From Betaproteobacteria bacterium Ga0077532 (GTDB lineage: Bacteria > Pseudomonadota > Gammaproteobacteria > Burkholderiales > Ga0077523): 64,000 nt of DNA. This document shows positions 1,895 through 43,960 of the stretch, in pieces. The notes below the pieces were generated by a model that did no database searches, was not told the DNA's origin, and saw nothing but the letters and a program-made list of their open reading frames with translations. Made by a program: the position numbers and the translations under genes. The stretch's first letter is position 1. Each line of letters opens with the position of its first letter. The DNA is taken from positions 1-64,000 of the forward strand of contig LNEE01000034.1 in NCBI GenBank assembly GCA_001464895.1, in the 5' to 3' direction.

Positions 1895-2224
1895 TCAGTC
1901 GACGATGAAGAGCTTCGCGCCGCCGGGCGCACGCGAGCGATGCGGCTCGGCGCCGTCGGCCACCTGGTAGCTCATCCCGGGCCGCAGCACGAAGACGCGC
2001 CCGTCGGCGAGTTCGGTCTCGAGCTCGCCTTCGACGCACAACAGGATGTGGCCTTTCTGGCACCAGTGATCGGCCAGGTATCCGGGCGTGTACTCGACCA
2101 TGCGCACGCGGATCGCGCCGAACTGCCGGGTCCGCCAGAAGGCCCGGCCGGTCTCACCCGGATGTTCGGTCTCGGGTACGGACGCCCAGTCGGTCGTACC
2201 GAATGGAATGCCCTGCATCTGCAT
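1895..2224 (-). CDS. DHCW-motif cupin fold protein
   Basis: MQMQGIPFGTTDWASVPETEHPGETG...YLADHWCQKGHILLCVEGELETEL. Confidence 0.85.
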   Translation of the reverse strand: MQMQGIPFGTTDWASVPETEHPGETGRAFWRTRQFGAIRVRMVEYTPGYLADHWCQKGHILLCVEGELETELADGRVFVLRPGMSYQVADGAEPHRSRAPGGAKLFIVD

Positions 2225-39563: not shown

Positions 39564-40490
39564 ATGACACAGGCTCCGGACATCGGTGAAGACGATCGCG
39601 TCGCGCGCAGGGGAGTGAACCCGCGGGCCGTCCTGATGGTACTCGCCATGGCGCTCTGTTTCACCGTGCTGGAAACCACGGCCAAGTGGTTGAGCCAGAC
39701 CTACCCCGTGCCGATGGTCGTGTGGGCGCGCTACGCGGGTCACGTCGGGCTGATGGTGGTGCTGTTCCTGCCCTCGATGGGTACGCGCCTCGTGCGCACC
39801 GTGCAGCCCACGAGCCAACTGGCGCGCGCCACGCTCATGCTCGGCTCGACGCTGTGCAATTTCGGCGCGATCAGCTTCCTCCCGCTGGCCGAGGTGAAGG
39901 CGATCAGTTTCGTGTCGCCTCTGCTGGTCACCGTCTTCGCGGTGTGGCTCCTGAAGGAGGGTGTGTCGCTCAGCCGATGGATCGCGATCCTCGTCGGCTT
40001 CGGCGGCACGCTCTTCATCGTGCGACCCGGCAGCGCCATGCTGAATCCCGCCGTGTTCCTCGCGCTCGGTTCGGCCTTCTGCTACAGCCTCTATCAGATC
40101 CTCACCCGGCGCATCAGTGGTGGCGACGGTCCGATCACCGCGCTGTTCTACACCGCCTTCGTCGGCTTCGTGTTCATGTCGTTCATGCTGCCGCACACGT
40201 GGAAGACGCCGGAGCTCGTGCACCTGCCGATCTTCCTGCTGCTGGGCGCCGCGGGGATGGGCGGCCACTACCTGCTAATCAAGGCCCTCGAGATCGAGCG
40301 CGCCTCGGCGCTCTCGCCGTTCGGCTATACGCAGCTCCTGTGGATCAGCCTGGCGGGCTATCTCGTGTTCAACGACGTGCCCGACCTGCATTCGCTGATC
40401 GGGATGGCCGTCATCGTGGCGAGCGGACTGTACGTGGCCTGGGGCCATCGCTACGTGAAGGACGAGGAGCCCGAGAGCGCGATCGAGTAG
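39564..40490 (+). CDS. DMT (EamA) family transporter
   Basis: Ten TM helices, two EamA repeats, LLKEGVSLSRWIAILVGFGGTLFIVRP. Confidence 0.9.
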   Translation: MTQAPDIGEDDRVARRGVNPRAVLMVLAMALCFTVLETTAKWLSQTYPVPMVVWARYAGHVGLMVVLFLPSMGTRLVRTVQPTSQLARATLMLGSTLCNFGAISFLPLAEVKAISFVSPLLVTVFAVWLLKEGVSLSRWIAILVGFGGTLFIVRPGSAMLNPAVFLALGSAFCYSLYQILTRRISGGDGPITALFYTAFVGFVFMSFMLPHTWKTPELVHLPIFLLLGAAGMGGHYLLIKALEIERASALSPFGYTQLLWISLAGYLVFNDVPDLHSLIGMAVIVASGLYVAWGHRYVKDEEPESAIE

Positions 40491-40512: not shown

Positions 40513-41166
40513 TCAGCGCCGCCAGCGCTTCACGTTCGCGGGGACAGGCGTGTCGGCGGCGAGGCGCGGATCGGGGATGGGCTTCCCGGCCTTCAGCGTC
40601 AGCGGGATCACGCCAGCCCAGATGGGCAGCGCGTAGTCCGGCTCGTCGTCGCCGGGCGGGCCGGTGCGTACCTTCGCGGAGGCTTCCTCGATCGGGATCT
40701 GCAGGACCGCCGTGGCGTTCACCTCCTTGCGCTTGATCGGCCGGAGTTCGGCCCAGCGTCCACGGAGGATCTGTTCGGAGATCACCTCCATCGCGTGCAC
40801 CTTGCGATCGGCCGGGACGACCTCCGCGCGCCCGAGCAGCATCACCGAGCGGTAGTTCATGGAGCTGTGGAATCCCGATCGTGCGAGCACAAGACCATCG
40901 AGATGGGTCACGGTGATGCACACCGGTACTCCCTGTGCGAGGGCGCCGAGCGTGCGGCTCACGGCAGATCCGTGCACGTAGATGAGCCGCTCCTCCCGAC
41001 CGTAGGCCGTCGGGACGACGTACGGCTGGCCGTCGGCCACGAAACCGAGATGGCACAGGAAGCCGGCATCGAGAATGGCCGCCACCGTGTCGAAGTCGTA
41101 ACTGCCGCGCTTCGGCATACGACGGACGGTGGTGCGGGGTGTCTTCAGGGACGTGACGGGCGACAT
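40513..41166 (-). CDS. Pyridoxamine 5'-phosphate oxidase family protein
   Basis: ILDAGFLCHLGFVADGQPYVVPTAYGREERLIYVHGSAVSR. Confidence 0.9.
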   Translation of the reverse strand: MSPVTSLKTPRTTVRRMPKRGSYDFDTVAAILDAGFLCHLGFVADGQPYVVPTAYGREERLIYVHGSAVSRTLGALAQGVPVCITVTHLDGLVLARSGFHSSMNYRSVMLLGRAEVVPADRKVHAMEVISEQILRGRWAELRPIKRKEVNATAVLQIPIEEASAKVRTGPPGDDEPDYALPIWAGVIPLTLKAGKPIPDPRLAADTPVPANVKRWRR

Positions 41167-41329
41167 GTAGGACTCCGGTTCGGTGATCAGCGAACGATAG
41201 CGGCAACCGGACGGCGGGTGTACGGTCTTACCGCGTAGTCGCGAAACTTGGCATCAAGCGCCCGGCGAGCCTCGAATATTTGCCGAACGCCCCTATGAAT
41301 TTCCGTTGGACTTGGTAAGCTTTTGAAAC

Positions 41330-41454
41330 TGTTGCGAAGAATATTTGCGGTTGGGCCCTCAAGCGTGAGCCGGCCGGGCCGCAAATAAAAGCAGGTCTCC
41401 TCCCCCCGCTAGGGGGTTTCGAAGGGCAGCCCCTTAAAGGCTGCCCTTTTTTTT
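41330..41454 (+). ncRNA. Candidate small RNA gene with intrinsic terminator
   Basis: Hairpin tatttgcgg...ccgcaaata (41342-41387), ctcctcccccc/ggggg hairpin (41403-41416), terminator stem gggcagcc-ccttaaa-ggctgccc + T8; no plus-strand CDS upstream since 40490; 5' end not determined. Confidence 0.55.
41422..41454 (+). terminator. Strong Rho-independent terminator
   Basis: aagggcagccccttaaaggctgcccttttttttg. Confidence 0.9.
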
Positions 41455-41560
41455 GTCCTGATTTTCGTCCCGCTTCTCGGAGCAGCGCTCACCCGGACGT
41501 CCGCGTTTCGATTTTCTCTCGGTATTTCAGGAGGTTCTGCTCTCTCGGGGCCGCTCCGAC

Positions 41561-42118
41561 CTACTCGCGGGGGGCGTGCTTGCCGAGCTTCCGCTGCAGG
41601 GTGCGACGGTGCATGCCGAGCGCACGGGCGGTCGCGGAAATGTTGCCGTCGTTCTCGCCCAGCACCCGCTGGATGTGCTCCCACTCCAGCCGATCCACCG
41701 ACAGCGGGCGGGCAGCTTCTTCGAGGGTGAGCATCGGCGAGGCATCGCCGAAGGCGGCCACGATCTGGTCGGCGTCGGCCGGTTTCGCCAGGTAGTGCGT
41801 CGCACCGAGCTTCATGGCGCTCACCGCCGTGGCGATGCTCGCGTACCCGGTGAGCACCACGATCCGGGCGTCTGGCGACTGTCGCCGCAATGCCTCGACC
41901 AGTTCCAGCCCAGATGCCCCTGGCATCCGGAGGTCCACCACCGCATGACTCGGGGGCGATTCCGACGCGAGGCGGAGCGCGTCCGGTACATCGGCTGCGG
42001 TCCGCACCTCGAAGCCCCGCCGCGTGAGCGCTCGCGCCAGCACGGTTCGAAACGTGTCGTCGTCGTCCACGAGCAAAAGCCAGCCGGGAGACGAGTCCGT
42101 CGAATGGGATGCAGTCAT
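41561..42118 (-). CDS. regA: RegA/PrrA-type response regulator
   Basis: LLLVDDDDTFRTVLARALTRRGFEV...DGNISATARALGMHRRTLQRKLGKHAPRE. Confidence 0.9.
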   Translation of the reverse strand: MTASHSTDSSPGWLLLVDDDDTFRTVLARALTRRGFEVRTAADVPDALRLASESPPSHAVVDLRMPGASGLELVEALRRQSPDARIVVLTGYASIATAVSAMKLGATHYLAKPADADQIVAAFGDASPMLTLEEAARPLSVDRLEWEHIQRVLGENDGNISATARALGMHRRTLQRKLGKHAPRE

Positions 42119-43434
42119 CACGCAGCCAGGGCGGAAAGGGGCAGTTCGATCCGGGTGCAGGCGCCACCAACCGCGCGGTTGGTCAGGGTGACCCGCCCGC
42201 CGAAACGTTCGAGTGCCGCATTGGCGATGAGCAGGCCGACGCCGTGGCCCTCCGGTTTCGTCGTGACCGGGAGGCGGCCCACTCTCGACAGCGTGTCCGG
42301 TTCCAGCCCGGCGCCGCGGTCGCGAATCTCGACGGTGAGCTGATCGGCTGTCCAGGAGCCTTGCATCTCGATCCCTTCGCCTGATGCATCGGCGGCGTTG
42401 TTGAGCAGCGTCACGAGCGTGTGTCCGAGGGTGCGCTCGGCCAGGATCCGTGGCGGCGGCATCGATCCGTCGAGGTGCAACGACAGCGGGATGCCGGGGC
42501 GCTGCACGCGCCACGATTCCACCGTCGCAGCGAGGAAGGTGTCGATGCCTTCGGCGCGCCCGTCCTCGCCGCGCGTCTGGCCGGCCGCGGCGACGAGGTC
42601 CGAAATGATCGACTTGCACTGGTCCACCTGCTCACGTACCCGGCGCAGCTCAGCACCGAGGTCCGGGTCGTTCCGGAAATCGTGCTCGAGATCGCGCAGG
42701 AGGACGGCCATCGTTCCCAACGGGGTTCCGAGCTGGTGCGCCGCGCCCGCGGCGAGCGTGCCGAGTGCGAGTACGTGCTGATCACGAAGCGCCCGTTCCC
42801 GCGCCGCCGCGAGCTCGCTGTCCCGCTCGCGCAGGGAGCCCGCCATTCGAACGACGAACCACGCGATCACGCCTGCCGACAGCACGAAGCTCACCCACAT
42901 CCCGAGCACGTGCAACCCGAAACCGTCGTCGTTGCCGTGGTGCACGTGAGGCAGCGGCACGTGGAAGAACCCGAGGAGGGTGTAGCAGACGAAGGTGACC
43001 GCCGCCATCGTCCAGGCGTGTCGCGGCGGCATGACGGTGGCGGCGATGACGAGCGGCAGAAGGAAGAGCGAGACGAACGGATTCGACCAGCCACCGGTGA
43101 AATAGAGAACTCCCGCGAGGAATCCCGTGTCCGCCAGCAGTTGGGCCAGCACCTCGCGCGGGCGCACCGGCCACGGGCGGGAGATGCGCCACCGCGTGAA
43201 GCCGTTCAGCGCGACTGCAGCGAGGACGACCACCGTGAGCGGAGTGATGGGGAGGTCGATCTCGAACGAGAACTGGACGATCGCGATGGCCCCCGCCATG
43301 GTCGCGAGGGCGATCCAGCGAAGCAGCACGAGCCGGCGCAGATGCCGCCGGTCCGGGGCGTCGTCCGCGGCCGTACCAGCGGGCGGGGCGGTGGCCAGGG
43401 GGACGGTGGGAAGAGGGGCATGCGGGTTCGACAT
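42118..43434 (-). CDS. regB: RegB/PrrB-type redox sensor histidine kinase
   Basis: GGWSNPFVSLFLLPLVIAATVMP motif, H-box AAGAAHQLGTPLGTMAVL, QVDQCKSIISDL cysteine. Confidence 0.88.
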   Translation of the reverse strand: MSNPHAPLPTVPLATAPPAGTAADDAPDRRHLRRLVLLRWIALATMAGAIAIVQFSFEIDLPITPLTVVVLAAVALNGFTRWRISRPWPVRPREVLAQLLADTGFLAGVLYFTGGWSNPFVSLFLLPLVIAATVMPPRHAWTMAAVTFVCYTLLGFFHVPLPHVHHGNDDGFGLHVLGMWVSFVLSAGVIAWFVVRMAGSLRERDSELAAARERALRDQHVLALGTLAAGAAHQLGTPLGTMAVLLRDLEHDFRNDPDLGAELRRVREQVDQCKSIISDLVAAAGQTRGEDGRAEGIDTFLAATVESWRVQRPGIPLSLHLDGSMPPPRILAERTLGHTLVTLLNNAADASGEGIEMQGSWTADQLTVEIRDRGAGLEPDTLSRVGRLPVTTKPEGHGVGLLIANAALERFGGRVTLTNRAVGGACTRIELPLSALAA

Positions 43435-43499: not shown

Positions 43500-43925
43500 T
43501 GTGGTCAACCTACAGCGCGATGCGTCTATGGCATGGGCACAGCGGCGAGTCCGGCAGTCCGGGCGTCGGGCTGCAGCCCGACCCACTTGGGAAACCGGCC
43601 CTCCGTGCGGATGGCGTCCATCGCGGGTGTTCGTAGGTCGAGCAGCGCTCGACGCGGCGATGGCATGGGCGCAGCGGCGAGTCCGGCAGTCCGGGCGTCG
43701 GGCTGCAGCCCGACCCACTTGGGAAACCGGCCCTCCGTGCGGATGGCGTCCATCGCAGGTGTTCGTGGGTCGAGCAGCGCTCGACGCGGCGATGGCATGG
43801 GCACAGCGGCGAGTCCGGCAGTCCGGGCGGCGGGCTGCAGCCCGACACACGGGGGAAACTGGCCCTCCGTGCGGATGGCGTCCATCGCGGGTGTGCGTTG
43901 GTCGAGCAGCGCTCGACGCGGGGGT
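43500..43925. repeat. Tandem array (~3.5 copies, 132-bp period) carrying the GTGGGTCGAGC element
   Basis: cg(t)(a/g/t)ggtcgagcagcgctcgacgcg at 43632, 43764 and 43896, plus partial first copy. Confidence 0.93.
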
Positions 43926-43960
43926 GAACTCCGGGCAACACACCCAGACCTGCCCAGAAA

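Follow-up and report, generated by a model that had tools for sequence, protein, structure and literature searches.

The locus and its surroundings

The window, which is the whole stretch of 64,000 nucleotides analysed here, carries a predicted small RNA (short form, ~64 nt) at positions 41391-41454 of the plus strand. These limits are taken from the conserved core, from the match to a covariance model and, for the 5' end, from the position of a promoter-like element. The predicted RNA begins with an anti-Shine-Dalgarno segment (CAGGTCTCCTC, 41392-41402, plus strand), whose assignment draws on GGTCTCCT being invariant in 12 homologs. This segment is annotated as mostly unpaired; in the folding ensemble it is only partly unpaired, and a weak 3-bp helix competes. 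The sequence CTCCTCCCCCC can be read directly at 41397-41407. The first hairpin, with a CCCCC/GGGGG stem (41403-41416, plus strand), is predicted by folding, and two-sided changes are seen in three of its five pairs across homologs. The second hairpin (41421-41449) forms the intrinsic terminator (41421-41454, plus strand) together with a U-tract at 41447-41454, and two-sided changes are found in six of nine pairs. Direct reading gives AAGGGCAGCC (41422-41431) and GGCTGCCCTT (41439-41448) as its arms and places the T8 run at 41447-41454, in agreement with the plus-strand terminator described in the original prediction.

The nearest plus-strand coding region is that of an EamA permease, which ends at 40490 and lies 931-964 nucleotides from the locus, and the large gap claimed earlier is therefore real. 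The locus is divergent to a Pyridox_ox_2 gene (40513-41166, minus strand) and convergent with a gene for a RegA-like regulator (41561-42121, minus strand). These coordinates agree with the placement between a divergent PNPOx-like gene and the 3' end of regA that had been proposed. The terminator would not serve regA, as was also suggested, because no T-run follows the hairpin when the minus strand is read. None of these neighbours is a flagellar gene. Further downstream, at ~43500-43940, translations of open reading frames recur every ~120 bp (AMAWAQRRVRQSGRRAAARPTWETGPPCGWRPS), which points to a tandem DNA repeat beyond the start of a histidine kinase gene.

The region 41336-41454 is predicted to fold with -60.1 kcal/mol, compared with -44.5 kcal/mol in shuffled sequences (z -3.85). 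Terminator-like sites are found three times in 7 kb, where shuffles lead one to expect 3.5, and such a site alone is at chance level. This density, and the fact that no Rfam family reaches its cut-off, would be consistent with the absence of a gene, the locus being just an isolated terminator in intergenic DNA that folds by chance. That reading is very improbable given the conservation of the core among species with different neighbours, the compensatory changes and the occurrence of tandem copies, which are described below.

Conservation and covariation of the core

A BLAST search with positions 41240-41460 against 100 relatives finds homologs in 10 of the 11 other members of the genus, with E values from 2.5e-78 to 7e-9, such that 11 of the 12 genomes of this uncultured Burkholderiales genus are represented. 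The same search yields a weak homolog in G049, which belongs to another family of the order, and two tandem copies in G003. The remaining genus member, G010, has fliA but no BLAST-detectable copy of the window type, which weighs against the FliA-driven reading given below. A covariance model of the core reports copies in every genus member, but the one in G010 is no more than a diverged copy preceded by a sigma54-type promoter. The core also occurs in a few families beyond the genus, where the model exceeds 40 bits in G049, G134, G065 and G171, the last having five copies on a single contig. The window itself matches at 41392-41458 with 85.3 bits, a score to be read in light of its presence in the training set.

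Mean column identity in the core alignment is 80%, and GGTCTCCT, much of the C/G stem and much of the terminator are invariant. When the 40 matches (37 distinct sequences) are aligned, 97% of cells are paired and two-sided changes occur in 9 of 14 pairs; this alignment leans towards the model because it was fitted to that model. The covariation score of 0.328 exceeds both the 0.121 obtained with shuffles and the maximum of 0.09 among slid controls. The first core alignment, for which no structure was used, already contains a GC-to-AU exchange in the terminator stem. When named genomes are scanned for the exact pattern, the core is recovered almost only from metagenome-assembled genomes (MAGs) of uncultured Burkholderiales or Betaproteobacteria. 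The scan also reports one Pseudomonadota MAG, which is a genus member, and one match in a Bacteroides MAG that may be due to chance.

The core is kept across species despite differing neighbour genes. This conservation with compensatory changes, rather than the terminator-like site, is what settles the question of a small RNA gene, which had been the central claim of the original prediction. The covariation analysis in relatives that had been proposed as a check is likewise favourable. Judged from these comparisons, positions 41391-41454 of the plus strand very probably constitute a small RNA gene, and we have high confidence that the gene is genuine.

Promoter-like elements and proposed mechanism

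A FliA (sigma28)-type -35 element, CTCAAGCGT, is located at 41358-41366 and a corresponding -10 element, GCCGCAAA, at 41378-41385, both on the plus strand. Both were identified with a weight matrix, and the upstream alignment, in which CT..AG and G.CG.A columns are invariant, also supports the -35 element. The matrix was built from 18 training sites that score 18.3-27.3 and had been selected because they resemble the E. coli consensus. They were drawn from promoters that precede flgM, motA and a GGDEF gene next to fliA, in members of the genus and in one case in G049. These promoters carry CTAAAGTTA or TCAAGNNN, a spacer of 11-12 nucleotides, and then GCCGTAAA or GCCGTTAT. The window site, CTCAAGCGT-N11-GCCGCAAA, scores 16.0, which is below all training sites and is reached by 0.06% of random 70-nucleotide segments. 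Ten other copies score 18.8-25.1 (the second copy in L005, those in L007-L010, L012 and L084, and three in L078), whereas the boxes in L002-L004, L006 and the first copy of L005 are weaker still than that of the window.

The end of the -10 element lies 9 nucleotides upstream of GTCTCC in the window and in the high-scoring copies, except for L007 (8 nucleotides) and L084 (16 nucleotides). This fixed spacing indicates that the RNA most likely starts near 41391, and not at 41330 as had been supposed. Thus, a FliA-type promoter stands at a fixed distance from the predicted RNA start, as is expected of the FliA regulon, although the window scores lower than flagellar promoters do.

Further upstream is an IHF-like site, TAAGCTTTTGAAA (41316-41328, plus strand), which has one mismatch to YAANNNNTTGATW. 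It begins 79 nucleotides before GTCTCC, and at the same position the site is perfect in L002 and L004 and imperfect in L005 and L006. In L008-L010 a perfect site begins 83 nucleotides before GTCTCC. Sites with at most one mismatch occur in 0.4% of random 130-nucleotide segments. Upstream of the IHF-like site, at ~41293-41305, there is also a conserved CTATGAATTTCCG, which is CTA(T/G)GAATTTCCG-like, in L001-L005.

The 9-bp inverted repeat that had been taken for an RNA stem, TATTTGCGG (41342-41350) and CCGCAAATA (41379-41387), does exist on the plus strand (41342-41387), but it is probably no part of the RNA. Its 3' arm overlaps the -10 element and is invariant in six homologs, in all of which GCAAATAA is unchanged, and its 5' arm mispairs in two of them (L005 and L006). 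Because the arm holding the -10 element is invariant while its partner mispairs, the comparison suggests that the repeat is probably promoter DNA rather than an RNA element. One alternative is that a longer transcript arises from an upstream promoter, that the TATTTGCGG hairpin is a real RNA stem, and that RNase E cuts the AAAUAAAAGC linker in the manner by which S17S is derived from S17L. S17 is published as being processed in this way (PMC11722255), most RF02278-type homologs from other parts of the order have a longer leader that looks conserved, the TATTTGCGG hairpin folds stably in the window, and GCAGG is preceded by an AU-rich linker. However, the mispairing of the 5' arm opposite an invariant 3' arm, the constant spacing between the FliA-type box and the short form and the lack of a sigma70-type promoter in a simple scan make this alternative unlikely.

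It is similarly doubtful, in our estimation, that the RNA is real but that a different sigma factor recognises its boxes or a regulator binds them, such that the link to flagella is coincidental. Compared with flagellar promoters, the window and L002-L006 have weaker boxes, and the neighbouring genes are non-flagellar. In addition, the RNA persists in G004, the only genus member that lacks both fliA (at the curated cut-off) and flhA in a genome that is 79% complete. Yet this copy (81 bits) has neither box upstream, the FliA-type box included, and the loss of the box in a genome without flagellar genes argues for FliA, as do the strong FliA-type boxes in L007-L010, L012, L078 and L084.

We consider it likely that the locus is an independent ~64-nucleotide small RNA gene, driven by FliA and IHF, whose product acts with the aid of Hfq as a trans-acting repressor at ribosome-binding sites. 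The computation shows that sequence and structure are conserved, that promoter-like boxes keep fixed positions, and that the window's own genome has hfq and fliA. We infer that the RNA is transcribed in dependence on FliA and IHF, that it binds Hfq and that it represses in trans, and any target is likewise inferred. Guided by FliA, the flagellar sigma factor, RNA polymerase would start at ~41391 and stop at the 41454 terminator, and IHF, bound ~65-75 bp upstream, would probably aid this start. The 5' end of the RNA would expose CAGGUCUCCUC, which is complementary to ribosome-binding sites, and Hfq would probably occupy the 3' U-tract. Pairing in trans with GAGGAGACC-like ribosome-binding sites would then block translation initiation of a set of mRNAs, a mode of action that has been reported for S17 and proposed for NcS27, and their repression would belong to the motile state. 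Since the RNA appears to be switched on by FliA, it may tie translation control to motility.

The original prediction held that CTCCTCCCCC could pair with ribosome-binding sites, an idea that agrees with the known relatives NcS27 and S17. By likeness to these RNAs, GAGGAGACC-like sites are the expected pairing partners of the window RNA. There are 32 occurrences of GAGGAGAC-N(2-12)-ATG in the window's genome compared with three for the reversed control. This difference shows only a Shine-Dalgarno motif because the other three letters at the last position average 38 sites, such that GAGGAGAC start sites are no commoner than other GAGGAGAN sites in this genome. Comparison of the proteins downstream of GAGGAGAC sites across three genomes gave no convincing common target. 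The sole coinciding pair is a weak one of short-chain dehydrogenases with 36% identity. Single duplex energies were given no weight as target evidence.

Paralogs and known relatives

A second, diverged double-hairpin copy is present in the window's genome at C16:75239-75318 (L071:3240-3319, 40.5 bits). It is located ~130 bp upstream of groES and is preceded by a sigma54-type -24/-12 element, GGCATTCCTGATGC. A second CCTCC is found in the loop of its terminator hairpin. In G007-G010 the copies share TGGCAC...TGC at a constant 63 nucleotides, and three of them have an IHF-like site at 107 nucleotides; groES is not beside these copies in the stretches read. In G049, FliA-type and sigma54-type copies are adjacent (L079:8564-8747, minus strand). 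The five copies of G171 form a cluster (L078:4156-7492, minus strand), and FliA-type and other promoters are mixed in the G171 and G049 clusters.

An RF02278-like hairpin pair is found directly after a stop codon in G007-G009 (L174 ~1900-1965, minus strand; L175; L176). The L174 pair, in G007, scores 33.9 bits and follows the stop codon of a phasin gene, so a possible reading is a 3' UTR-derived small RNA tied to storage granules. Another weak RF02278-like pair (26 bits) is located just after an ammonium transporter gene on C31 of the window's genome (L179:2665-2731, minus strand), and is the best RF02278 match of this genome outside the locus. It is conceivable, though somewhat doubtful, that within this Burkholderiales lineage one double-hairpin family is spread over FliA-type promoters, sigma54-type promoters and a phasin 3' UTR, and that similar seeds repress overlapping sets of mRNAs in different physiological states.

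A FliA-type copy offers a concrete lead on what triggers the widespread double-hairpin RNAs of Burkholderiales. A copy with a flagellar-type promoter alongside sigma54-type paralogs suggests a testable way in which broad repression of translation could be tied to motility and nutrient state. A search of open-access literature brought up no report of a FliA-driven double-hairpin small RNA.

No Rfam family matches the window at gathering score. The Rfam search suggested earlier nevertheless returns, with relaxed thresholds, RF02278 as the best family below its cut-off (41394-41454, 32.1 bits), followed by STnc250 (31.2) and mmgR (30.3). RF02278, the Betaproteobacteria toxic small RNA, has matches in 64 of 100 sampled Burkholderiales genomes, 34 of them above the cut-off, and there is no above-cut-off match anywhere in the window's genome. 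The window RNA has the layout of this family, with a GUCUCCUCC 5' segment followed by a short first hairpin and then a terminator hairpin. It aligns over its full length to the Rfam model, and the core model in turn finds RF02278-type loci. We do not file it under RF02278 because it misses the 50-bit cut-off, although it would work like RF02278 RNAs. Many RF02278-type homologs (L142, L145, L146, L151, L159, L167, L171) have an upstream TTGCANTGCA-like box, which might serve as a -35 region or as an operator.

NcS03, NcS05, NcS27 (bdhR1) and NcS62 of Burkholderia cenocepacia (PMC5688073) are likewise double-hairpin RNAs of ~60 nucleotides, with several copies per genome. Growth slows when NcS27 is overexpressed, and a CU-rich region of this RNA is predicted to cover ribosome-binding sites (PMC5688073); NcS27 also affects amino acid and carbohydrate use (PMC10987360). 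In contrast to these relatives, the first loop of the window RNA lacks a second CUCCUCC, and its FliA-type promoter is located directly at the short form. The mmgR/suhB family (RF00519) is also CU-rich with a strong terminator, but it has CUCCC in the linker between its hairpins, and the window's 30.3 bits miss its gathering score of 41.

S17 of Bordetella pertussis depends on Hfq, and in its short form it acts directly to repress a sigma54 activator gene (PMC11722255). It shares the CU-rich 5' segment followed by two hairpins, and the short form has a similar length (67 nucleotides). However, S17S arises when RNase E cleaves S17L, which has a promoter that is higher in Bvg+ mode (PMC11722255), whereas in the window a promoter is predicted immediately ahead of the short form. 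FliA control, predicted here, is the likeness to UhpU, MotR, FliX and FlgO of E. coli (PMC10578931) and CJnc170 of Campylobacter jejuni (PMC11187230). The E. coli sigma28 RNAs come from mRNA UTRs (PMC10578931) while the window RNA is intergenic. The window RNA appears to be a relative of the 'toxic', growth-slowing small RNAs known from Burkholderia and Bordetella, and it resembles NcS27 and S17. We have fair confidence that it is a FliA-linked variant of the double-hairpin anti-Shine-Dalgarno small RNAs.
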